DNA of 64,000 nt from Dongia mobilis. Its GTDB lineage: Bacteria > Pseudomonadota > Alphaproteobacteria > Dongiales > Dongiaceae. Shown one piece after another: positions 288 through 51,045 of this stretch. Location: contig NZ_SNYW01000013.1 of assembly GCF_004363235.1 (NCBI RefSeq), positions 1 to 64,000 on the forward strand, given 5' to 3'. The number at the start of each line of letters is the position of its first letter. The first letter of the stretch is position 1. The notes under the pieces are model-generated. The model worked only from the letters and a program-made list of their open reading frames with translations, had not been told where the DNA came from and searched no databases. The position numbers and the translations under genes were made by a program.

Positions 288-699
288 GGTTCGCTCCCTG
301 TCGGCGAGGGTGGAATTCAGCAGCGGTCGCAACCGGCGAAATCCAGGGCGCGGGGCACCGAATTTTCCGGGAACCGGCAGTCCCCGAGAAAACGCGCCAA
401 AAACAGGCAATATTCCTTAAATTTGATGGGTATATTTCGAAAAGCCTACACCTTGATGTGGCCACAACGAGTTTTAATCGCTTGACGCAACTTGCCCGAT
501 GCAATGCCAATGCGCGGAAGGGATGCGGCCGGACGATGCGGGTTGATGATGCGGGAGACGGCGCCCGGTTTCAGGGTTTTGCCGATTTGGAGTAATGATG
601 CCCGGGGGAATACCGAGTAGCGGCATTGTGCGGGCGGATGTGAAACACAAAAACTCTGCTGTCCCCGATCCTACCGGAAAGGCGACTGGAGCGGATTGA
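288..699. other. Divergent intergenic region
   Basis: No convincing gene lies here. The region separates the leftward surface-protein gene from the rightward sigma gene. It holds the leftward ECF-type promoter candidate at 391-416 and an AT-richer patch around 405-470. On the plus strand a GGAAT at about 609-613 lacks a CGTT at the right distance, so I could not place the sigma gene's own promoter. Confidence 0.6.
391..416 (-). promoter_or_regulatory. ECF-type promoter candidate (GGAAT-N17-CGTT)
   Basis: Read on the minus strand, GGAAT at 416-412 and CGTT at 394-391 are separated by exactly 17 bases. The same two boxes with the same spacing precede the FecR gene and the Gly-rich gene. GGAA(C/T) -35 and CGTT -10 elements are typical of alphaproteobacterial ECF sigma promoters. 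The predicted transcript start would lie about 95 bases before the ATG at 287. Confidence 0.6.
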
Positions 700-1248
700 G
701 TGGCGGGACGGAAGGATTTCGAAGCCAAGTTGATCAGCCTGCTGCCCCGATTGCGACGCTTTGCCATCGGGCTCAGCGGGTCGATCGACGAAGGGCATGA
801 CTTGGTTCAGGCTGCCTGCCTGAAGGCGATCGAGAAGCGCCATCAGTGGAATCCGGACAGCAAGCTGGACAGCTGGATCTACCGGATCGTGCTTACGCAG
901 TGGCTGGACCGCCGCAAATCCGCAGCCATGCGTCTGAATGTGCCGGGCGATCAGCACTGGGACAATATCGCCGGCCCGTCCATGCAGAGCGAGCTGGAAT
1001 CCCGCGAGGAACTCAAGAAGACCTGGAGTGCCATCCGCGAATTGCCGGAGGATCAGCGGCAGGTCTTGCTGCTGGTCGCAGTCGAAGGCCTTAGTTACCA
1101 GGAGGCCGCCGACCTTCTCGGCATTCCGATCGGAACCGTGATGAGTCGGCTGGCGCGCTCGAGGCTGGCCCTCGCGCGGAATGTGCAGAACGACAGGGTT
1201 ACCGGCAAGACAGGATCCGGAAAGCCGGACACGGAGAACACTGGATAG
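700..1248 (+). CDS. ECF-subfamily RNA polymerase sigma factor
   Basis: A 182-residue protein with the ECF layout. Sigma-70 region 2 spans about residues 8-75 (DLVQAACLKAIEKRHQW, then SWIYRIVLTQWLDRRK), and region 4 spans about 110-165 (LPEDQRQVLLLVAVEGLSYQEAA followed by the helix-turn-helix IPIGTVMSRLARSR). It directs RNA polymerase to a dedicated promoter class. The start is GTG at 700, with a purine-rich stretch just upstream; no ATG fits better. The next gene, 41 bases downstream, is the probable membrane anti-sigma factor. The last 20 residues are hydrophilic and probably disordered. Three GGAAT-N17-CGTT sites nearby are the best candidates for its targets. Confidence 0.9.
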   Translation: MAGRKDFEAKLISLLPRLRRFAIGLSGSIDEGHDLVQAACLKAIEKRHQWNPDSKLDSWIYRIVLTQWLDRRKSAAMRLNVPGDQHWDNIAGPSMQSELESREELKKTWSAIRELPEDQRQVLLLVAVEGLSYQEAADLLGIPIGTVMSRLARSRLALARNVQNDRVTGKTGSGKPDTENTG

Positions 1249-1255
1249 GCTCCAG

Positions 1256-1280
1256 GGAATATTTTCATCCTGGAATCGTT
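1256..1280 (+). promoter_or_regulatory. Possible ECF-type promoter before anti-sigma gene (GGAAT-N16-CGTT)
   Basis: GGAAT at 1256-1260 and CGTT at 1277-1280 are 16 bases apart, one base shorter than the other three sites. If used, transcription would begin almost at the ATG at 1290, giving a near-leaderless message. This is weaker than the N17 sites. Confidence 0.3.
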
Positions 1281-1289
1281 AGGTGACAC

Positions 1290-1964
1290 ATGACCGGCAT
1301 TGAACAACAGATTGGCGACGAAATGATCGAGCGCATCATGCGATACTGCGACGGGACCTTGCCGCCCGACGAAGCCGCCCGCGTGGCTGACGAGATCGCA
1401 GCGGACCCGCTGCTGCAGCAATTGGCGCAGGACCTGACAACCGGAGCGAACCTCGCGCGCGAGACGATGTCCGGCCTGATGAACGACCCGGTTCCACTGC
1501 ATCTGGCCAGAACCATTGTCGAGGCGCCGGAACCGCTACAATCGCACTCGCGCCACCACAGGTGGTTTTCAGCACGCGAAGCCACGGCTGCAATGGTCGG
1601 CCTGCTGCTGGGTGGAGCCGCGATAGGTCTGTTGGCACAATGGCCAGGACAGGATGCCGGCCTGCGCCTGGCCAGCCTGCCGGAAGCAAGTGGAACCGAC
1701 ATCCAGTCCGGGGCAATGAAATCGGCCTTGATGGGCCTCCTGCAAACTCCAGGCGAGATTCGCACACAATCGTATCAGGATTCTGATCATTTAAATCAAA
1801 TTGCGTCGGTGAGTCTGGTATCCTGGTTCCAGATGGCGGATGGTTCCGATTGTGCGGAGTTTCACGTGCGACGGGGTCAATCCGACAGAACGGCCGGCTT
1901 CGCCTGCCAACGCGACGGCCGTTGGGATATCGTCATGCTGCAGGACGCTGCCGAGCAACAATAG
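1290..1964 (+). CDS. Probable membrane-bound anti-sigma factor
   Basis: A 224-residue single-pass protein directly after the ECF sigma gene. The N-terminal 90 residues are charged and helical, with IERIMRYCDGTLPPDEAARV near the start, which resembles the cytoplasmic sigma-binding domain of anti-sigma factors. A hydrophobic segment at about 98-116 (ATAAMVGLLLGGAAIGLLA) should cross the inner membrane. About 105 residues then face the periplasm, including SLVSWFQMADGSDCAEFHV, which may sense an envelope signal. No HxxxCxxC zinc motif is visible. It ends 57 bases before the subtilase start, so release by proteolysis is an attractive but unproven idea. Confidence 0.7.
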   Translation: MTGIEQQIGDEMIERIMRYCDGTLPPDEAARVADEIAADPLLQQLAQDLTTGANLARETMSGLMNDPVPLHLARTIVEAPEPLQSHSRHHRWFSAREATAAMVGLLLGGAAIGLLAQWPGQDAGLRLASLPEASGTDIQSGAMKSALMGLLQTPGEIRTQSYQDSDHLNQIASVSLVSWFQMADGSDCAEFHVRRGQSDRTAGFACQRDGRWDIVMLQDAAEQQ

Positions 1965-2021
1965 ACCCGGTTTAGACCCGGTTTCTTGCAGGCCGCGCCG
2001 GACGGAGATTGTTCTGGGATC

Positions 2022-3620
2022 ATGTGGCGCCGCCTGATCATCTCTGCCTTCGTTGCGACCAGCCTCGCTACCCTGCATGGGGCGTTGGCGGGCTCGCTGT
2101 TGATTGCTTTCACATCCGCCGCCATGGCCAAGAATGAAAAAGCCGACGGCAATGGCAAGGCTGGTGGCAACAACGCGGGCGGCAATGGCGGCAGTGGCAG
2201 CAACAACGGAAACAGCAACGGCAACGCTGGCGGAAACAATGCCGGCGGCAACAGCGGGAACGGCAATGCTGGTGGCAACGCCGGTGGAAACAGTGCCGGT
2301 GGAAACAGTGCCGGTGGAAACAGTGCCGGTGGAAACAGTGCCGGTGGAAACAGTGCGGGCGGCAACAACGGCAACGGCAATGCCGGTGGCAACAATGCGG
2401 GCGGCAACGGCACCCAAAACATCGGCGGCCCCTCAGGCCTGCCGGCAGCCGCTGCGCCGGCCGATAACCCGGTGACCAATACGGACGGCACTGCCGCCAG
2501 CGTCGGTGCAATCGCCACCGAAATCGTCGAAGTGCCGACGCCGAACGGCGGCGCAGGCAAGGCGATTGCGGTCAAGGGCGAGATCGTCGCCGCCATCGCC
2601 GGGATGGACCTCGCGGGCTATGCTGCGCAAAAGGGTTTTAAGGTGGTGGACAGCCAGGCCTACCCGGCGCTGGACATGTCGGTCACGCGAATGGCGCCAC
2701 CGGAGGGCGTCTCCCTGGCGGCTGCACGCGACATGATCCAGTCGGCGTTTCCTGGCGCGTCGGTGGATTTCAACCATGTCTACAGGCCGAATGCCGGCTT
2801 TGCCGTCGCGTCGCTGGAATATGCCCACCAACAGATAAGCTGGAACCCGACGTTGACCGGCTGCGATGCGAGGCAGGACCGCATCGGCATGCTGGATACC
2901 ATGGCGGATCTGTCGCAGCCGGCGCTCGCCAGTTCGGTGATCGAGCAAAAGTCCTTCGTGGATCACGGCGCGACAGAGGCCGCCAATCTTCACGGCAGCA
3001 TGATCGCAACACTTCTGGTGGGAACTGAATTCGGCCTTCTGCCAAACCGGCCGCTGTCCATCGGCGGCATTTTTACGATCGATCAGACAGGCGCGCCGAT
3101 AGCCAGCACATCCAGCTTCATCGCCGGGCTCAACTGGCTGGTGGACAATGGCGTGCGGGTCGTCAATACGAGCCTGAGCGGTCCCGACAATCGCCTGTTG
3201 AAACTGGCGGTCGATGCCGCCGCCGCACGCCAGACCCGGATTGTTGCGGCGGTCGGCAATGATGGACTGGATGGTGTGGCTCGCTATCCCGCGGCCTATC
3301 CCGGCGTGGTCGGTGTGACTGCGGTGTCGCCAGACCGCAAGGCGTTCCAGGCCGCCAATCGCGGCAGCTTCGTTGCCCTGGCCGCACCCGGCGTCGATCT
3401 ATGGATTCCCTATACATCAGCACAGAATGTCGGCGGGGTTGTCGTCAGCGGCACGTCCTTCGCCTCGCCTTTTGTCGCGGCAGCCCTCGCTGCCAACGGG
3501 AACAACCTCGATCGCCTGTTGGCATCTGCCCTTGATTTGGGTCCGGCCGGCCCCGACCCGGTCTTCGGGCACGGCCTGGTTCAGGCCGGCAATATCTGCG
3601 CCGTGGCTGAGGCCCAATAG
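2022..3620 (+). CDS. Secreted S8-family (subtilisin-like) serine peptidase with Gly/Asn repeat
   Basis: ATG at 2022 gives 532 residues and a good signal peptide (RRLIISAF then a hydrophobic core to about residue 35). A TTG at 1986 in the same frame would hide the signal and is rejected. After the signal comes a low-complexity Gly/Asn/Ala tract (about residues 38-130) built from GGNSA-type units. The peptidase domain follows, with the catalytic Asp in GMLDTMAD (about 292), His in NLHGSMIATLLVG (about 324) and Ser in GTSFASPFVAAALA (about 479). It probably acts in the periplasm or outside the cell. Third gene after the sigma and anti-sigma genes, it may cleave surface proteins or feed back on the anti-sigma factor. 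Alternative: autotransporter-like passenger, but no beta-barrel is present. Confidence 0.85.
   Translation: MWRRLIISAFVATSLATLHGALAGSLLIAFTSAAMAKNEKADGNGKAGGNNAGGNGGSGSNNGNSNGNAGGNNAGGNSGNGNAGGNAGGNSAGGNSAGGNSAGGNSAGGNSAGGNNGNGNAGGNNAGGNGTQNIGGPSGLPAAAAPADNPVTNTDGTAASVGAIATEIVEVPTPNGGAGKAIAVKGEIVAAIAGMDLAGYAAQKGFKVVDSQAYPALDMSVTRMAPPEGVSLAAARDMIQSAFPGASVDFNHVYRPNAGFAVASLEYAHQQISWNPTLTGCDARQDRIGMLDTMADLSQPALASSVIEQKSFVDHGATEAANLHGSMIATLLVGTEFGLLPNRPLSIGGIFTIDQTGAPIASTSSFIAGLNWLVDNGVRVVNTSLSGPDNRLLKLAVDAAAARQTRIVAAVGNDGLDGVARYPAAYPGVVGVTAVSPDRKAFQAANRGSFVALAAPGVDLWIPYTSAQNVGGVVVSGTSFASPFVAAALAANGNNLDRLLASALDLGPAGPDPVFGHGLVQAGNICAVAEAQ
2281..2355 (+). repeat. Five tandem 15-bp units inside the subtilase gene
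   Basis: The unit CCGGTGGAAACAGTG occurs five times in a row with perfect identity through 2355. Related, more diverged units lie on both sides from about 2150 to 2410. The units are in frame and encode AGGNS. Perfect identity suggests recent expansion by slippage; gain or loss of units changes protein length without a frameshift. Confidence 0.9.
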
Positions 3621-3689
3621 CCTGAGCCCGGGCAACCGGAGCGAGGCAAACCAGTCAGTTAGCGATTAAGTGATGGTGCCGAGGCTGGA

Positions 3690-4709
3690 TCAGTCGCGGC
3701 CAAGCCCCTTGCCGTTACCATTGCCATTACCCTGCCCCGAATTGTCCTTGCCCTTGCCCGGATTGTCGGGGTCGCGCCCATTGTCATTGTCGCCATGGCC
3801 GGAATTGCCGTCACCATCCGCGCCGCCAGAACCACCACCGCCAGAACCGCCGCCGCCAGAACCACCACCGCCGGAACCACCACCGCCAGAACCGCCGCCG
3901 CCAGAGCCGCCGCTGCCGCCGTCCGAACCGCCGCCACCAGCGCCAGAGTTACCGCCAGCGCCGCCGCCACTGCCATCACCTTGGGAGCCACGGGCCTGGC
4001 CAGATTCGCCCTGAGATCTTCCTTCGCTGTCCAGGTTGGAATTGCCGAATCCCGGCCCGGTTCCAGGCGCCGGCCCTGCCGCCGTGGCAAAGTCACCGAT
4101 CGCCCCGACCTGCGGCGGCATCTTGCTGTTGGTGATCAGAATGCTGTCGCCCTCCTCGCCGCCAACCGATTGTTCATGCTCCTTTGGCTTGGCAACGACG
4201 CTGCCCGACAGCACGTCCACAACGGTCGATCCATCGGCGCCCACGGAGATTGCAATATCGGTACCGCGAATGCCGACGGTCGCGACCGGTGTTTCAAAGA
4301 CGATACCCTCGTCATTGATGCCCGCTTCTTCATCAGTGGTGAAACGCATCAGACCCGAATTCAGGTTGACCTGAGCCGTCGTTGCGGCGCCATCGGGATC
4401 GTATACGTAAGAATCCAGCGTCATCTCGCTTTCCGCCTCGAGCCGCAATACGGCTCCGTCGGGGAAGCTCATCTCGACCGCCGAATCCGCGGCGGTACGG
4501 ACCACCGAATCCGACAGCAACCGGTCGCCGAGTGAAATCGGGCCCTCCTCACCGTCGGGCGGTGTCTGGAATGCCTCGTTGACCAGATCGATCACATCGG
4601 CGATCGGATCCGTTGTCGTGGCGGCCAAGGCGGTAAACGCAACGCCGGACGCTGTCAGACACGCCGCGATACCGGCCAGCACCGCGATCCGGCGGGATAT
4701 CCTTTTCAT
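3690..4709 (-). CDS. FecR-domain periplasmic protein with long Gly-rich tail
   Basis: The start is ATG at 4709 (MKRISRRIAVLAGIAACLT), chosen because it gives a clean signal peptide; the longer upstream frame is mostly antisense to the cyclase promoter region. The 339-residue product has a FecR-like beta domain at about residues 55-190 (DRLLSDSVVRTAADSAVEMS, then GIVFETPVATVGIRGTDIAI), usual for proteins that bind or sense at the envelope. About 130 residues of Gly/Ser/Asn/Asp repeat follow, with GGGGS-type units at 3820-3960. It lies convergent with the subtilase and divergent from the CHASE2 cyclase. A GGAAT-N17-CGTT promoter candidate lies 116 bases upstream. FecR domain proteins of this kind often accompany CHASE2 proteins. 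Confidence 0.8.
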   Translation of the reverse strand: MKRISRRIAVLAGIAACLTASGVAFTALAATTTDPIADVIDLVNEAFQTPPDGEEGPISLGDRLLSDSVVRTAADSAVEMSFPDGAVLRLEAESEMTLDSYVYDPDGAATTAQVNLNSGLMRFTTDEEAGINDEGIVFETPVATVGIRGTDIAISVGADGSTVVDVLSGSVVAKPKEHEQSVGGEEGDSILITNSKMPPQVGAIGDFATAAGPAPGTGPGFGNSNLDSEGRSQGESGQARGSQGDGSGGGAGGNSGAGGGGSDGGSGGSGGGGSGGGGSGGGGSGGGGSGGGGSGGADGDGNSGHGDNDNGRDPDNPGKGKDNSGQGNGNGNGKGLGRD

Positions 4710-4824
4710 AATGCCCGACCTTTCTAGCCCCCCGACTGCGTTGGCAGTGACGGTGTTGTGTCGCCGTTCGCCTGTTCCACCGGCATGCCGGTGAATGGAT
4801 GGAATTCGGGTTCTACGCACCAGT

Positions 4825-4850
4825 AACGACCGACCTGCCGTTCTTATTCC
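4825..4850 (-). promoter_or_regulatory. ECF-type promoter candidate for the FecR gene (GGAAT-N17-CGTT)
   Basis: On the minus strand GGAAT at 4850-4846 and CGTT at 4828-4825 are 17 bases apart. The sequence around them (GGAATAA, CGTTAC) is nearly the same as at the Gly-rich gene (GGAATAA, CGTTGA). The start of FecR lies about 116 bases downstream. Confidence 0.65.
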
Positions 4851-4938
4851 GTGACATGGGAAATTTTGACTCCGGCAGGGGAAGCAACTAGCGTCCGCTG
4901 ACACCCCGCCCCAGGAAGCGGCCCCAGGAAGCGGTTCC

Positions 4939-7131
4939 ATGAAGCATGTCCTGCATCGCCTGTTGCCGCTGTTGATGCTCATCGGCGCTGTGATGCTGCG
5001 GGCCGAGGACCCCGCTTTTCTCTCGGACATGCGCCTGCGCGTATTCGATGTGTTCCAGCGCCTCAGTCCGCGCACCTATGCCGCGACACCGGTCCGGGTT
5101 GTCGATATCGACGAGGAATCTCTGCGCCGATACGGCCAATGGCCGTGGCCGCGCAGCCGCATCGCCGCCATGATCGAGCGACTGCAGGTAGCCGGCGCTT
5201 CGGTCGTCGCCTTCGACATGGTTTTTGCCGAGGCCGACCGCACGGCGCCCCGCCGGGCCCTGCCGGAATGGGGGATCGAGCCGTCGGATCCGGTCTTTGC
5301 CGATATCGTCGGACGTACCGCCGACCCCGACGCGGCACTTGCGGCCGCCATCGCCCAGATGCCGGTGGTCCTGGGTTTCGTGCTGACCAGCAACCCGACC
5401 GAGCAGGACATGCCAAGGCGCAAGGGCGGCCTTGCCGTCCAGGGTGCCCCGAAGGGTCTCAAACTCGGCGATTATGTAAGCCCGCGCTTTACCGGTGCCG
5501 TCGTCAACCTGCCGGATCTGTTACGGCCGGCCAAGGGTCTTGGCAGCATCAATGTCATCCCACAAAACGACGGCATCGTCCGGCAGTTGCCGTTGCTGCT
5601 AAACGGCGACGGGACGCTTTATCCGAGCCTGGTCGTGGAGGCGCTGCGCGTCGCCGAGAAGGCGTCCACCCTTGCGGTGAAATCATCCGGCGCAAGCGGC
5701 TATCAGCATTGGTGGCAGGAACTCGGTGCGCGGCTGGCGGGTGCCGAGGTCATCGCGGAACTGCGCATCGGGCGGCGCGTTGTCCCCACCGACGGCATGG
5801 GCCGGGTGTGGCTGCATGACAGCGGCCGCATCGCCCAGCGACAGATTCCTGCCTGGCAAATCCTCTCCGGCGAAGTGACGGATCTGACCGGTGCGATCCT
5901 CTTTGTCGGTACCAGCGCACCAGGGCTTCTTGATCTGCGCGCGACACCGCTCAATCTCGTCACACCTGGCGTCGAGATTCATGCGCAAATCGCCGAACAG
6001 ATTCTGACCGGAGTTTCGTTGCAGCGGCCCTATTGGACCATCCTGCCGGAACTTGCCCTTCTGATCATCCTCAGCATTACCCTGGTGTTGCTGCTGCCGC
6101 GGCTCGGCCCGCTTGGCTGCACCCTACTCGGTGCCGGCACGGGGCTGATCGCAATCGGCCTCGCCTGGCTGGCTTTCGCTCATTTCGGCCAACTCTTTGA
6201 CCCGGTCTACCCCTGCCTTTCCACTTTCGCCATCTTCGTTACCGGCGTGCTGACGTCATATTTCCGGTCGGATATAGAGCGGCGCGGCATCCGCGAGGCG
6301 TTCGGTCATTACCTGGCACCGGAAATGGTCGAGCGTCTTGCCGACGATCCCAGCCAGCTCCGCCTCGGCGGTGAACTGCGCGAAGTCACGATCATGTTCT
6401 GCGACATTCGCGACTTCACCAGCATCGCGGAAAGAACCGATGCAACGCGCCTCACCCGCCTGCTCAACAGTTTTCTGACGCCCATGACGGATGCGATCCT
6501 GCGTCGTCATGGCACCATCGACAAATATATCGGCGATTCGATCATGGCATTCTGGAATGCGCCGCTTGACGATCCCGATCATGCCGAGCATGCCTGTTCC
6601 GCCGCATTGGACATGCGCCGCAGTCTGGCGGAACTGAACACCCAGCGCGCTGCCGAGGAGCCCCTGCGCATGGGAATCGGGATCAATTCCGGCACCTGTC
6701 TGGTCGGAAACCTCGGCACGCAGAAGCGCTTCAACTATTCGGTCATCGGCGACGACGTCAATCTTGCCTCGCGCCTGGAGACGCTGACCAAGAGTTACGG
6801 GATCGACATCCTGGTTGCGGATCCTGGCGACCGGCTGGCAGCCAAATTCGCCCTGCTCCCGCTGGGCGAAGTACAGGTCAAGGGAAAGCAGGTGTTTGTC
6901 AGGATCATGGCGCTGGTCGGCGGCGCCACGCTTGCCCGCGATCCCAGGTTCAAGCTGGTGCAGACACTGTTGCAGGAGGTGATCGCCGCCTTGCGGATTG
7001 GCGACACACGTGCTGCGCGACGATTCCTGGCGGAGTGCCCAACCATCGACGAGGCAAGCGAATTGCGGCCCCTCTACGACCACATGGCCTTAGCCATCGA
7101 ACGCCTGGAGGGGGAGCGCGGCGCCAATTGA
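4939..7131 (+). CDS. CHASE2-domain adenylate cyclase (class III)
   Basis: A 730-residue inner-membrane sensor. An N-terminal hydrophobic helix (about 5-22) is followed by a periplasmic CHASE2 domain to about residue 350 (VRVVDIDEESLRRYGQWPWPR is the classic start). Three membrane helices lie at about 355-435, and a class III cyclase domain spans about 475-650. Metal-binding Asp489 and Asp533 are present (FCDIRDFTS, DKYIGDSIMAFW). Lys529 and Asp605 (VIGDDVNLASR) are the residues that select ATP, and the transition-state pair Asn608/Arg612 is intact, so this should make cAMP. The last 80 residues form a helical tail. It is divergent from the FecR gene, suggesting one envelope-sensing unit that links a surface signal to cAMP. 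Confidence 0.9.
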   Translation: MKHVLHRLLPLLMLIGAVMLRAEDPAFLSDMRLRVFDVFQRLSPRTYAATPVRVVDIDEESLRRYGQWPWPRSRIAAMIERLQVAGASVVAFDMVFAEADRTAPRRALPEWGIEPSDPVFADIVGRTADPDAALAAAIAQMPVVLGFVLTSNPTEQDMPRRKGGLAVQGAPKGLKLGDYVSPRFTGAVVNLPDLLRPAKGLGSINVIPQNDGIVRQLPLLLNGDGTLYPSLVVEALRVAEKASTLAVKSSGASGYQHWWQELGARLAGAEVIAELRIGRRVVPTDGMGRVWLHDSGRIAQRQIPAWQILSGEVTDLTGAILFVGTSAPGLLDLRATPLNLVTPGVEIHAQIAEQILTGVSLQRPYWTILPELALLIILSITLVLLLPRLGPLGCTLLGAGTGLIAIGLAWLAFAHFGQLFDPVYPCLSTFAIFVTGVLTSYFRSDIERRGIREAFGHYLAPEMVERLADDPSQLRLGGELREVTIMFCDIRDFTSIAERTDATRLTRLLNSFLTPMTDAILRRHGTIDKYIGDSIMAFWNAPLDDPDHAEHACSAALDMRRSLAELNTQRAAEEPLRMGIGINSGTCLVGNLGTQKRFNYSVIGDDVNLASRLETLTKSYGIDILVADPGDRLAAKFALLPLGEVQVKGKQVFVRIMALVGGATLARDPRFKLVQTLLQEVIAALRIGDTRAARRFLAECPTIDEASELRPLYDHMALAIERLEGERGAN

Positions 7132-7170
7132 TGGCAGTGCGTCAGATCGCACGATCGGTTCCAGCGCCAA

Positions 7171-8004
7171 TCAGCTCTCCACCTCGCCGGCTGTCTCGCC
7201 GGTCGTATCGTCGGCCGTATCGCCGGTCACACTGTCTGTCCCGTCGCCGGGATTCTCAAACCCCTTGATCTCGTTTACCTTATCCGCGAGTGCGTCGGCG
7301 AAAGATTCCTCGCTGTCGTCATCCGGCTCGCCCTCCGCCGTACCGTCGTTCTCTTCCGGCTCATCCTGCGAACCGATCAGGCCGGAATAATCGTCGCCAT
7401 AGGTCTCGCTCAATCGGCCAAGGACATTTTCCACGATCTCGCCGGTCATCGGCTTGTTCACCGCCTCGGCTAATGCTTCCGCTAGATCGTCAAGATCCAC
7501 TGGTTCCGCGGCGCCTTCTTCGCCTTCGCTGTCCACAACCCCACCCACATACTCGTTCAGGAGGTCACGAAATTCCTGGCTGACGGCGCCGATCGCGGAA
7601 TTCGGTGCGGCGTTCTGCATGGCTGCCGGACTGGCATGCATGAAGCCATTGAGCTTTCCGTAGTCACTGGGCGTGGGCGAGTCCGTATCGCCGCCCGCCT
7701 TGGCGTTGCCGGCAGCACCTTGCGCGGCGCCACCACCGCCGGCCCTGCCGCCCGCGCCATCGGCATTGCCGCCACTCCGCTCGCTGCCACGGTCGGCGCC
7801 ATTTCCCTGGCCGCCGCCATTGCCGCCCCCGTTGCCGCCCCCGTTGCCACCGCCATTGCCGCCCCCGTTGCCGCCGCCATTGCCGCCGCCGTTTTTCGCC
7901 TCGGCGATATTGTCGAAGGGTGACGCGACAAGGCCGATTCCCGCACCGGCCACCAGACCGGCGACCGCCATAACCCTGACAAATTCGGAAACGCGACGCT
8001 TCAT
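7171..8004 (-). CDS. Secreted Gly/Asn-repeat protein with acidic C-terminus, unknown function
   Basis: ATG at 8004 sits behind GGAGAAAAG and starts a signal-peptide-like segment (RRVSEFVRVMAVAGLVAGAG). Then come GGGN tandem units (about residues 38-75), a Gly/Ala/Asp stretch, and an acidic region of about 100 residues (EEGAAEPVDLDDLAEALAEA, many Glu/Asp). The product is 277 residues. I recognise no catalytic domain. Codon-level repeats on the minus strand are GGCAACGGCGG-like. It is convergent with the cyclase gene and carries the third GGAAT-N17-CGTT site. With the subtilase and the FecR protein it is the third Gly/Asn-repeat exported protein in 8 kb, which points to an extracellular or envelope role. 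Confidence 0.7.
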   Translation of the reverse strand: MKRRVSEFVRVMAVAGLVAGAGIGLVASPFDNIAEAKNGGGNGGGNGGGNGGGNGGGNGGGNGGGQGNGADRGSERSGGNADGAGGRAGGGGAAQGAAGNAKAGGDTDSPTPSDYGKLNGFMHASPAAMQNAAPNSAIGAVSQEFRDLLNEYVGGVVDSEGEEGAAEPVDLDDLAEALAEAVNKPMTGEIVENVLGRLSETYGDDYSGLIGSQDEPEENDGTAEGEPDDDSEESFADALADKVNEIKGFENPGDGTDSVTGDTADDTTGETAGEVES

Positions 8005-8086
8005 GAGCTTTTCTCCAGAAGGGCAGTGTTGATACCGGGGCAAGGGCCCGAAGGCAGATCCGCGGTCAGGCCTGTTCCTGAGCGTC

Positions 8087-8112
8087 AACGAAGCTGCCAG
8101 TTGAGTTATTCC
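8087..8112 (-). promoter_or_regulatory. ECF-type promoter candidate for the Gly-rich gene (GGAAT-N17-CGTT)
   Basis: On the minus strand GGAAT at 8112-8108 and CGTT at 8090-8087 are separated by 17 bases, as at 391-416 and 4825-4850. The gene start is about 83 bases downstream. Confidence 0.65.
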
Positions 8113-8266: not shown

Positions 8267-8629
8267 ATGCGTCACGCCGCTCACTTCGCTGCCGACACGA
8301 CGCCTCCAGCCGGCATGGCGGCGGGGTCACGCCGTCCGGCCATGGAAAAGGTCGAATTCCACGATTCCCGCGGTCGCGCCAACTTCGTTTCCCTGTCGCT
8401 CCATGACCTGGTACCGGACGACCAGGGCGCCCTGGTGATCGAGACCGGCGGCGATGTCCTGGTGATCGAGCTTTCGGATTTTCAGGAAGTTGTCCGCCGA
8501 GGGATTGCCCCCGAAGGATCCCAGACCCAGTACTTCAACGTCTCCGGCATGGATTTCTGCCAGTTCCTCGACGGTACCGTGCTCTATTTCTCGGCCGAAG
8601 ACGTGCGTCTGGTGCTGGCGCCCGAGTGA
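8267..8629 (+). CDS. Small hypothetical protein
   Basis: I do not recognise this protein. Three in-frame ATGs (8234, 8267, 8342) are possible. 8267 is preferred because GGGAAAAGGG lies just before it; the well-structured part starts at 8342 (MEKVEFHDSRGR). The product from 8267 is 120 residues, soluble, with a beta-rich pattern (GALVIETGGDVLVIELSDFQ, then TQYFNVSGMDFCQFLDGTVL). No signal peptide or membrane segment is evident. It is divergent from the Gly-rich gene and could belong to the same surface block, perhaps as a partner of the large protein at the left edge; that is a guess. Confidence 0.5.
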   Translation: MRHAAHFAADTTPPAGMAAGSRRPAMEKVEFHDSRGRANFVSLSLHDLVPDDQGALVIETGGDVLVIELSDFQEVVRRGIAPEGSQTQYFNVSGMDFCQFLDGTVLYFSAEDVRLVLAPE

Positions 8630-9173
8630 CGGCAGGGCCGGACGCGGGATCATTGATTTCCCGGCCGGTTTCTGTTTGTCCCGGTCCAACGATCCATCCT
8701 CCGTGCCCGAAAGGGGGATTCTACGCAGGTTGTCTTGCGAGTCCGGTCAATTCTGCGGGCCCAACCAATCGCCCACATCCACCAATGCCCTTCGCCTTCC
8801 AGTGCACGAGATCGCGGACACATCGACGAGGAACGGACTTTCCTGGGAAATAATCAGCCGGTCAGGCGCTGGCGTCCCAGCGGTGATGAAACTGATAACT
8901 GGCAATTGGTCGACGACCTAACCTCCGACCAGGGCGCCAGGGATCGTAGCTGATTTGGGCAATAGCCCTAACCAATTGGAATAAAAGGCCCGGATATCAT
9001 CGCTGGCTGCGAATGTGTCACAGCTTTGTGTGACGTGGAAGTGAAGATTTGGGCGCCTGCATCGTAGCCGGTCCTGCGTTCCAGTGCCCGCATCTGTTTC
9101 CGGGTTTTCAGCATTTGTATCAAATGCTAGACGCAAGATTGTCCATAGGCTGAGGCATCCCTGCGATCATTCT
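8630..9173. other. Gene-poor spacer between surface block and ABC locus
   Basis: No credible coding region: frames are broken, lack ribosome sites and resemble no family. It contains one copy of a 33-bp sequence (8870-8902) that recurs exactly at 57816-57848, so it may hold debris of a dispersed repeat or insertion sequence. Confidence 0.5.
8870..8902 (+). repeat. 33-bp dispersed repeat, copy 1
   Basis: This stretch (begins TGGCGTCCCAGCGG, ends CTGATAACTGG) is identical to 57816-57848 in the same orientation, 49 kb away, and both copies lie in gene-free DNA. Flanking sequence does not match clearly. It could be a remnant of an insertion-sequence end. Confidence 0.8.
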
Positions 9174-15132: not shown

Positions 15133-16515
15133 ATGCAATTCGATATCGCTATCATCGGGGCTGGCGTGGTGGGAACAGCCATTGCGCGCGACCTCTCGCG
15201 TTTCGACCTTCGCGTCATCCTGCTGGAAGCACGCGCCGATTTCGGCGACGAATCCAGCAAAGGGAACTCGGCGTTGATGACCGCTGGCTTCGATACACCG
15301 CGCGGCACACTGGAACGCCAATTGGTGACTCGCGGCTTCATTCGCTATCAGACGGAGGCGCCCGCCATGGGCCTGCCGATCCGCCGGGTCGGTGCCCTGA
15401 CACTTGCCTGGAGCGACGAACAGCGAGCCATCGTTGAACACGAAGTCGCCGGCGCCCGTGCCGATGGTTTCTCGAGCGTGACTTTGCTGGATGGCGCCGA
15501 CGTGCTGCGACGGTGGCCACATTTCAGCCCTGGCATTCAATGTGCCATGTGGGCGCCGGAAGAATGTATCGCCGACCCATTCTCTACGCCCTATGCCTAT
15601 GTGCTGGACGCGGTGGCAAACGGGGTGGTCTACCGGCCGTCTTTCGCCGTTAAGCGTGCGGATCGACTGACGAATGGCTGGCGGCTGGAGGAGGCCAAGG
15701 GTCAAGCCGTCACGTCGAGGCTTGTGGTGAATTCCGGGGGCTTGCGGGCCGACAAGGTCGAAGGACTGGCCGGCTACAGCGATTTCGTCGTGCGGCCCCG
15801 ACGGGGGCAGTATCTTGTTCTCGACAAGGCGGCGCGCAGCCTGCACGACGTGATCGCCCTGCCCACGCCGACGCCGACCACGCGCGGAATCCTGATTGCC
15901 CCAACCATTTTCGGAAACGTGATCGTTGGCCCCACGGCCGAGGAAGTATCTGACCCGGATGACCGGCGCACCACCCCGGAAGGTCTCGCCAAGCTGCGCG
16001 AGGCCATGCACCGCATGGCACCGGCGCTGGAACAGTTTCCAGTAAACACGGTCTTCTCTGGCATGAGACCGGCCACCGATCGAAGCGAGTATCAAATCAT
16101 CCCGCGCCTCTCCGAGCGGTGGGTGACAGTGGCGGGCATCCGTTCGACAGGCTTCTCCGGCGCTCTGGGAATCGCCGAGCACGTTGCATCCCTGCTCGTT
16201 CCGCTTTTTGTCGATGCACGCCGGAAGACAACAACAAACGCCATTGTGGTTCCGGATCTTGCAGAAACCTCTCAGCGGCCGTGGCAGGACAATGCCCGGA
16301 TCGAAGCTGATCCGCGCTACGGCGAAATCATCTGTCATTGTGAGAGAGTTACGCGTGGTGAGATTGAAAACGCCATGGCCTCGCGCATTCCTCCCCGGAC
16401 CTTGAAGGCTCTAAAACGCCGGACACGCGCCATGTTCGGTCGCTGCCAGGGCTTCTATTGCGGCGCCCGGATTGATGCAATATTCAATTCCGGCCGGAAC
16501 AGCGAACACACATGA
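15133..16515 (+). CDS. FAD-dependent dehydrogenase, GlpA-like, with C-terminal [2Fe-2S]-type Cys motif
   Basis: A 460-residue protein starting at ATG 15133, where the FAD motif FDIAIIGAGVVGTAIARDLS begins at once. The DAO fold runs to about residue 370 (the GNSALMTAGFDTP and GIRSTGFSGALGIAEHV segments are typical). The last 65 residues have a BFD/[2Fe-2S]-like set of cysteines (IICHCERVTRGEI, then FGRCQGFYCGARI), as in anaerobic glycerol-3-phosphate dehydrogenase GlpA. The start is 2 bases after the kinase stop, and the end overlaps the next gene by 4 bases. It probably oxidises the phosphorylated substrate made by the kinase; the exact substrate is unknown. Confidence 0.85.
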   Translation: MQFDIAIIGAGVVGTAIARDLSRFDLRVILLEARADFGDESSKGNSALMTAGFDTPRGTLERQLVTRGFIRYQTEAPAMGLPIRRVGALTLAWSDEQRAIVEHEVAGARADGFSSVTLLDGADVLRRWPHFSPGIQCAMWAPEECIADPFSTPYAYVLDAVANGVVYRPSFAVKRADRLTNGWRLEEAKGQAVTSRLVVNSGGLRADKVEGLAGYSDFVVRPRRGQYLVLDKAARSLHDVIALPTPTPTTRGILIAPTIFGNVIVGPTAEEVSDPDDRRTTPEGLAKLREAMHRMAPALEQFPVNTVFSGMRPATDRSEYQIIPRLSERWVTVAGIRSTGFSGALGIAEHVASLLVPLFVDARRKTTTNAIVVPDLAETSQRPWQDNARIEADPRYGEIICHCERVTRGEIENAMASRIPPRTLKALKRRTRAMFGRCQGFYCGARIDAIFNSGRNSEHT

Positions 16516-49878: not shown

Positions 49879-51045
49879 CTACTGTTTTTGGCAAAGGAGC
49901 AATCCGACGTAAGGATTTGTCACATCGACCGGAGCACCAGGTCCGAACGCGTTCGATGTAATTGCATTCCCGTGGTCAGATACAACCACGCGGCCGTAGT
50001 AGAAGCCCGCTTGATCACGGCTATTCATTAATCCGCCCGAAATCCCTGTGCGAGTAGATGCCTCGCCTGTGTTGGTCAGCGGCAAGACGTGCGCGTGCGG
50101 AGGGAGGTTGTTTGCTGTTAGCGACACTACCTGAGAGCCGCCTTGAGCCAGGAGAGACACATTGGGTAGCCCGCTGCCAGCACTTCCGACACCGACAATG
50201 GTTCGCCCTATGCCCTCTGCGAATGGTTGCCAGCCCTTCGGACACGCTGCGGCATTGAAGGCCATGACCGCATTCTGAGGCACGTAATACTCGCGGATCG
50301 AAGGCAACAATGGGTCGATCTGCTCTACAAAGGAGATTAGAAGGCTATTGCCTGCGAGGTAGATTGCTAATGACCCGGGCTTATATCGATGGAACGATTG
50401 GCCGTCCTGCTCGATAGTTTCAGGTTCATCACGCCAACAATCAACAGTGATCCCCCTATTGGTCAGCAATCCGCCCTCCGCGGTTTGCGTTTCGATGATC
50501 TCGTCTTTGCTTCGGAAGGCCCTATAGCCGCACGTGTATCCGTGCGGGGATACGCCGCCGAACGCGATTCCTGAGCCGGCGCCAGTGTACTTCAGATTGA
50601 CCAGTACGTGCCTTTGGTTGCCATCGGTCAGAATGGGGTCGATATCCACTTCCTTGTTAGCAGTGCAGGTTTCCCAAGCCCTTACGGCGGCATCGTTTAT
50701 AGTACGGACTTCCTGGTACTGGTCCGTTTGATCACTGCTCGAACTCCGATTAGTCTGACACCACTCGTCCAGTTTGGTTTTTCGGAGATCATCTGACATT
50801 GAACCGTCACCCGAGCCGTACCCGAAGACTTCGACGTCAATCTGCCCCTTCTTGCTGCTGTCAAATGTCTCGTACTGTTTGCGGCAATACTTGTCGTAGA
50901 GGAATGCGGTACGGTCATAAGAGTACTTACTGACCGATATGTTGTAGAGCCCATGCTGGAGCAAAGCATCGCAGTTGCCGGCCGCGAAAGCTGTACCTGG
51001 GGCCGCGAGCATCGAGACTACGAGGATGGCTCGGAGAGAAGGCAT
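49879..51045 (-). CDS. Secreted protein with C-terminal phage tail-collar-like domain
   Basis: ATG 51045 follows GGAGG and starts a signal peptide (PSLRAILVVSMLAAPGTAFA). The 388-residue product has an N-terminal region of about 250 residues with paired cysteines (NCDALLQHGLYNISVSKYSY, DKYC, EWC, CTANK). A C-terminal collar-like domain follows (AACPKGWQPFAEGIGRTIVG, LPPHAHVLP, TNPYVGLLLCQK), as in phage tail-collar and microcystin-dependent-type proteins. Those normally sit at phage fibre ends and have no signal peptide, so this fusion on an exported protein is unusual. It may bind surfaces or glycans outside the cell. Confidence 0.65.
   Translation of the reverse strand: MPSLRAILVVSMLAAPGTAFAAGNCDALLQHGLYNISVSKYSYDRTAFLYDKYCRKQYETFDSSKKGQIDVEVFGYGSGDGSMSDDLRKTKLDEWCQTNRSSSSDQTDQYQEVRTINDAAVRAWETCTANKEVDIDPILTDGNQRHVLVNLKYTGAGSGIAFGGVSPHGYTCGYRAFRSKDEIIETQTAEGGLLTNRGITVDCWRDEPETIEQDGQSFHRYKPGSLAIYLAGNSLLISFVEQIDPLLPSIREYYVPQNAVMAFNAAACPKGWQPFAEGIGRTIVGVGSAGSGLPNVSLLAQGGSQVVSLTANNLPPHAHVLPLTNTGEASTRTGISGGLMNSRDQAGFYYGRVVVSDHGNAITSNAFGPGAPVDVTNPYVGLLLCQKQ

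Follow-up and report, generated by a model that had tools for sequence, protein, structure and literature searches.

The window analyzed here, a 64,000-nt stretch of Dongia mobilis DNA, very probably carries a local regulon of an ECF26-type (RpoE6-like) sigma factor, served by four promoters of the form GGAATA-N15/16-CGTT, as judged from the sequence and its comparison with related loci. The original prediction, which had read the locus as a local sigma regulon, is thus supported in substance. The type of circuit is already known; the informative addition is a change in its wiring.

Promoter sites and genes of the locus

Pattern search across the window recovered GGAAT-N17-CGTT at all three of the minus-strand positions originally predicted, as well as the fourth site, GGAAT-N16-CGTT, that had been placed before the anti-sigma gene (Table 1). 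With a fifth match outside the locus, at 49946(-), the window total is five against 0.87 expected, and at least five were found in 0 of 100 shuffles. All four local sites read GGAATA; with the gap counted after this hexamer, GGAAT-N17-CGTT becomes GGAATA-N16-CGTT, and GGAAT-N16-CGTT becomes GGAATA-N15-CGTT. Measured as the difference in position between the final T of CGTT and the first letter of the start codon, the distances are 104 for the surface protein gene, 116 for the FecR gene and 83 for the Gly-rich gene, in agreement with the predicted range of 83–116, and 10 for the anti-sigma gene. The extended GGAATAA and CGTT(A/G) attributed to the sites at 4825 and 8087 are likewise present in the sequence. 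The N16 site is a core part of the set and probably acts as the promoter of an anti-sigma/subtilase unit.

Table 1. Genes and candidate promoters of the sigma factor locus (window coordinates).
Feature	Position	Strand	Basis
Giant surface protein, N-terminal part (MATDTTNIP...); gene truncated by contig end	1..287	-	Orthologue comparison
Promoter of giant surface protein, GGAATA-N16-CGTT	391..416	-	Same element before orthologue in L041, L042
ECF sigma factor, RpoE6/ECF26-like	700..1248	+	Sigma70_r2, Sigma70_r4_2 matches; 46.6% identity to S. meliloti 1021 pSymA homologue
Promoter of anti-sigma/subtilase unit, GGAATA-N15-CGTT	1256..1280	+	Conserved in L041, L042; same place in S. meliloti ecfR6
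Anti-sigma factor (probable)	1290..1964	+	Position; weak domain matches; one membrane segment by eye
S8 subtilase	2022..3620	+	PF00082 E 1.8e-18 on residues after Gly/Asn-rich tract
FecR-domain protein, Gly/Ser/Asn/Asp-rich tail	3690..4709	-	PF04773 E 1.8e-13
Promoter of FecR gene, GGAATA-N16-CGTT	4825..4850	-	Present in L041, absent in L042
CHASE2 adenylate/guanylate cyclase	4939..7131	+	PF05226 E 1.6e-57, PF00211 E 5.4e-27
Gly/Asn-rich protein, signal-like start	7171..8004	-	Orthologues in L041, L042, L043
Promoter of Gly/Asn-rich gene, GGAATA-N16-CGTT	8087..8112	-	Present in L041, L042, L043

The sigma factor is 182 aa long and comprises regions 2 and 4 only, as group ECF26 requires. Two further traits of this group are present: a linked serine protease, here the S8 gene downstream of the anti-sigma gene, and target promoters of the GGAATA / GT type, here the four local sites, which are conserved. 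ECF26 is therefore the best assignment and not a proof, being based on these sequence traits rather than on the published ECF group models. The sigma gene and the probable anti-sigma gene are adjacent, as originally described, with domain matches for the former and two weak ones, both below the cut-off, for the latter (zf-HC2, E 0.006; PRK13920, putative anti-sigmaE, E 1.6e-5). Anti-sigma factors of group ECF26 have an N-terminal anti-sigma domain, a membrane segment and a periplasmic end; the gene in the window agrees in position, with these weak domain matches and a membrane segment judged by eye.

No GGAATA-CGTT site precedes the sigma gene of the window, and no sigma-70-type promoter was found between positions 250 and 1400. 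A GGAATA lies 93 nt before the sigma start, with no CGTT at a usable distance and nothing alike in L041 or L042; that it could be a promoter relic is only a thought. The cyclase gene is divergent from fecR, a pairing kept in L041 and L042, and has no ECF site of its own; we regard it as a neighbor rather than a regulon member. A general domain scan of the neighboring genes gave no match to NepR or PhyR, the partners of EcfG, apart from the sigma-like domains of the sigma factor itself.

Conservation within the genus

Same-genus genomes keep the element with different spacer sequence: it precedes all four target orthologues in G003 and three of the four in G001, the FecR gene of its locus L042 being without a site; in G005, it occurs at the Gly-rich gene and at the sigma gene itself. 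An open search for any 5-mer/4-mer pair at gaps of 10 to 22, over 14 upstream regions of 200 bases before orthologous genes of four same-genus genomes (G000, G003, G001 and G005), returned GGAAT-N16/17-CGTT as the best pair, present in 13 of the 14 regions, a set chosen once the first sites were known and including the site-less L042 FecR region. The best pair in 40 random sets of 14 stretches was found in three (23 sets) or four stretches (17 sets); these sets lack the kinship of orthologues, between which, in turn, the spacers differ freely.

L042 contains two further sites, at 8546(-) before a gene for a DUF5801 protein and at 15798(+) before a TadE/G-like gene, which suggests that the local regulon differs between species. 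The locus is also patchy in the genus: in G002, G004 and G006, the sigma model found nothing at E 1e-38, and there was no anti-sigma match.

The wider sigma family

The sigma alignment was scanned against named genomes, and 90 loci were compared: the best 80 of 580, the stretches of nine relatives, S. meliloti pSymA and the window, minus L079, which shares a contig with L045. An S8 peptidase match lies within 4.5 kb in 57 of these 90 loci (a set that includes the best 80 of 580), divergent in 46, downstream in eight and otherwise placed in three. Among the 57 S8-linked loci, 16 have GGAATA-N15/16-CGTT before the sigma gene and 12 have it in the anti-sigma region; of the 46 upstream regions of divergent S8 genes, 17 contain it. 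The remaining gaps between 6 and 30, pooled, gave two, zero and one for these three kinds of region, and the anti-sigma regions read on the other strand gave none at any gap.

The motif is not universal in the sigma family, since in 57 of the 90 loci (again including the best 80 of 580) neither the sigma gene nor the anti-sigma gene is preceded by an exact site, a count that takes in L091 and L104, whose upstream DNA is missing. Sphingomonad-type loci (L080, L088, L090, L092, L094, L095 and L098) keep the divergent S8 gene and have no exact GGAATA-CGTT site; promoter specificity may thus have shifted there.

Genome-wide counts and alternative explanations

The genome-wide search proposed with the original prediction gave no excess of the bare core: GGAAT-N16/17-CGTT has 39 matches in the 4.19-Mb genome, where one repeated site accounts for three, compared with 35.7 expected for two spacings from 214 matches over 12 other spacings. 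The case therefore rests on clustering and conservation. The longer GGAATA-N15/16-CGTT occurs 13 times in this genome, where 23 matches over 10 other spacings predict 4.6; the corresponding figures are 15 against 7.2 in G001 and 13 against 7.0 in G003, and in G005, it is rarer than expected (4 against 10.4). Four of the 13 sites fall within 7.7 kb, before four genes. The nine outside the locus comprise six inside called genes and three intergenic ones, according to a crude gene caller; where a gene start lies within 300 nt of an off-locus site, the product resembles an efflux adaptor (L007), a Flp pilin (L024) or a LysR regulator (L052). In G001, G003 and G005, which together have 32 sites, the survey took in 21 viewed loci and seven sites within L041/L042, with G001:C13:1422878, G001:C14:37357, G001:C15:20976 and G003:C47:20015 left out of the off-locus comparison. 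No off-locus target was common to the genomes among sites with a called gene, several sites having no gene in their 3-kb locus; the regulon thus looks local. A GGAAC version of the element was also counted genome-wide and set aside, with 47 sites, fewer than the 106 of a backward control, the only control applied to it.

A short motif chosen by eye after the sequence had been read might cluster by chance, and the background level of the bare core speaks for this. The original prediction had named many random hits genome-wide as telling against it, and the bare core on its own behaves in this way; conservation overrides that result, the element being kept before orthologues and showing a sharp spacing peak in independent genomes. 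Chance clustering is strongly disfavored and we give it hardly any credence; the original claim that chance agreement is unlikely holds through clustering and chiefly through cross-species conservation, without a bare-core excess.

Real promoters could still be read by another factor. EcfG of the general stress response (group ECF15), which recognizes a GGAAC –35 box and is under NepR/PhyR control, could own the sites and leave the local sigma incidental. All four local sites instead carry GGAAT (none GGAAC), the sole GGAAC site of the locus lying inside the cyclase gene, and GGAATA sites track the locus of this sigma across species. We consider ECF15 ownership improbable, even with the resemblance of its –10 box and spacing and, in the accessible text of PMC6180224, the likeness noted between the motifs of RpoE6 and ECF15, along with a 67% overlap between RpoE6 targets and the RpoE2 regulon. 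A reading in which another ECF sigma of the genome mainly serves these promoters draws on seven further ECF-like matches in the genome and on the cross-activation described between the S. meliloti ECF26 sigmas RpoE1 and RpoE4 (PMC6180224, accessible text). The best of those seven, however, scores 123.8 bits against 292.4 and is placed by the tree, with weak support, outside the family, and the promoters accompany this sigma in many species, which makes such a reader quite improbable. That the sigma factor of the window reads the four sites accordingly remains our preferred, sequence-based inference.

Exported products

The L041 orthologue of the surface protein is 2721 aa long, with bacterial Ig, cadherin-like, DUF5801 and RTX repeats. 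The subtilase has a signal-like start, a Gly/Asn-rich tract and then the catalytic domain, in which Asp, His and Ser motifs are recognizable by eye. A domain scan of the Gly/Asn-rich protein gave no family match. Tracts rich in Gly, Asn, Ser and Asp are shared by the subtilase, the FecR protein and the Gly/Asn-rich protein of the window, and a role of the products in surface remodeling would fit, as a guess.

Across the 57 S8-linked loci (in the set including the best 80 of 580), tract-bearing ORFs, from a crude longest-ORF choice, made up 14 of 60 near a site and 18 of 826 others (Fisher p 1.7e-9). By position, the 18 away from sites are 15 S8 genes, two FecR genes and one other ORF (L110); the 15 S8 genes either sit downstream in a unit, lack an exact site or have a misplaced start. 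As S8 genes account for 24 of all 32 tract-bearing ORFs, again by position, the test mostly restates the tract of the S8 protein itself.

In L141, at about 8407-8793(+), a small-protein ORF with a signal-like start and (NSSS)n repeats lies behind a GGAATA-CGTT site. The gene annotated opposite the (NSSS)n ORF in L142, at 8316-8705(-), is a minus-strand hypothetical protein, and the annotated strand is possibly wrong. Similar (NSSS)n ORFs lie behind sites in L066, L083 and L087. A small exported-looking (NSSS)n protein behind a site is thus an addition in some rhizobial loci.

Two promoter wirings

Among the 90 loci (including the best 80 of 580), the exact site lies before the sigma gene in 20, in the anti-sigma region in 13 and at both in none. 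One of the 13, L082, is a doubtful member: its site lies about 1330 nt past the sigma start and is unlikely to be an anti-sigma promoter. The window, L041 and L042 form one clade (support 99), all of the anti-sigma kind, which branches within a sigma-first group of L043, L044, L045 and L064 (supports 89-92); L178, of the same family and outside the 90-locus counts, is also sigma-first. Given this nesting, the promoter probably moved inside the genus, and the clade of the window seems to have gone from sigma-first to anti-sigma-first wiring. A separate move probably occurred in the rhizobial branch holding RpoE6. The exclusivity of the two wirings carries little independent weight, as the tree has just three wiring changes, L082 among them.

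The best characterized relative found is S. meliloti RpoE6-EcfR6, which has a related sigma, an adjacent anti-sigma factor and an S8 peptidase beside them. In the accessible text of PMC6180224, RpoE6 is placed in group ECF26 with the consensus GGAATA/GT; its mapped promoters, of SMa0142, ecfR6 and SMa0148, have the form GGAATA-N15-CGTT; and the ecfR6 promoter, possibly also RpoE6-dependent, lies inside rpoE6, just before the anti-sigma gene, while rpoE6 itself has a promoter region resembling RpoD/RpoH promoters. All three listed promoters were located in L141, and the printed SMa0142 and ecfR6 sequences stop 9 nt after CGTT. The ATG of the anti-sigma gene follows CGTT by 9 nt in the window and by 10 nt in both L041 and L042; if transcription begins, as for SMa0142, 9 nt beyond CGTT, the anti-sigma mRNA may be almost leaderless. 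The two systems differ in arrangement and output: the S. meliloti S8 gene, SMa0142, is divergent from the sigma gene and its local set has SMa0139 and SMa0148 (PMC6180224, accessible text), whereas in the window the S8 gene follows the anti-sigma gene and the set consists of the giant surface protein, the FecR protein and the Gly/Asn-rich protein. In the tree, the clade of the window is not the sister of RpoE6 and joins loci of RpoE6 type, with weak deep support. SMa0142 has been screened among peptidases, with fixation scored '+' (PMC8175422, accessible text).

SigH-RshA of Corynebacterium glutamicum, as described in the accessible text of PMC3489674, is an independent precedent for anti-sigma-only wiring: the sigma gene is under other promoters and an extra sigma-dependent promoter serves the anti-sigma gene only, in a different ECF group and phylum and in a redox/heat response. 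The RpoE6 of Azospirillum (PMC12826043) was taken as a namesake, having a 98-aa anti-sigma factor and, in the accessible main text, no mention of 'ECF26' or 'GGAA'. A literature search, mostly of papers outside subscription, yielded no recognized account of this locus type with an adhesin and a FecR protein.

Proposed circuit and implications

At rest, the membrane anti-sigma factor would hold the sigma factor, which an envelope signal, we guess, would free. The holoenzyme would then read the four promoters, giving anti-sigma factor and subtilase, presumably co-transcribed, together with the giant surface protein, the FecR protein and the Gly/Asn-rich protein. As the sigma gene has no such promoter, sigma-dependent feedback would run via the inhibitor only, and active sigma would yield more anti-sigma, not more sigma. 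The exported products could plausibly remodel the cell surface, and one or more of them may be substrates of the subtilase.

More broadly, and tentatively, we propose that ECF26-subtilase systems come in two exclusive wirings, a sigma-first, self-amplifying one and an anti-sigma-first one with inhibitor-only feedback, the second probably reached by two independent moves. Their outputs would be co-regulated exported proteins with Gly/Asp/Asn/Ser repeats and a subtilase with like tracts that matures or sheds them, so that the system would be a surface-coat module and not a stress response.

The locus provides a well-supported promoter set for an uncharacterized ECF26-type sigma factor and links this factor with a subtilase, a FecR protein and a giant adhesin-like protein. 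This product set suggests surface remodeling as a role for the branch, to whose S. meliloti member the accessible text of PMC6180224 assigns no function. With both wirings present in a single sigma lineage, and a switch that probably took place within one genus, natural pairs would be available for studying how the sign of feedback affects an ECF circuit.
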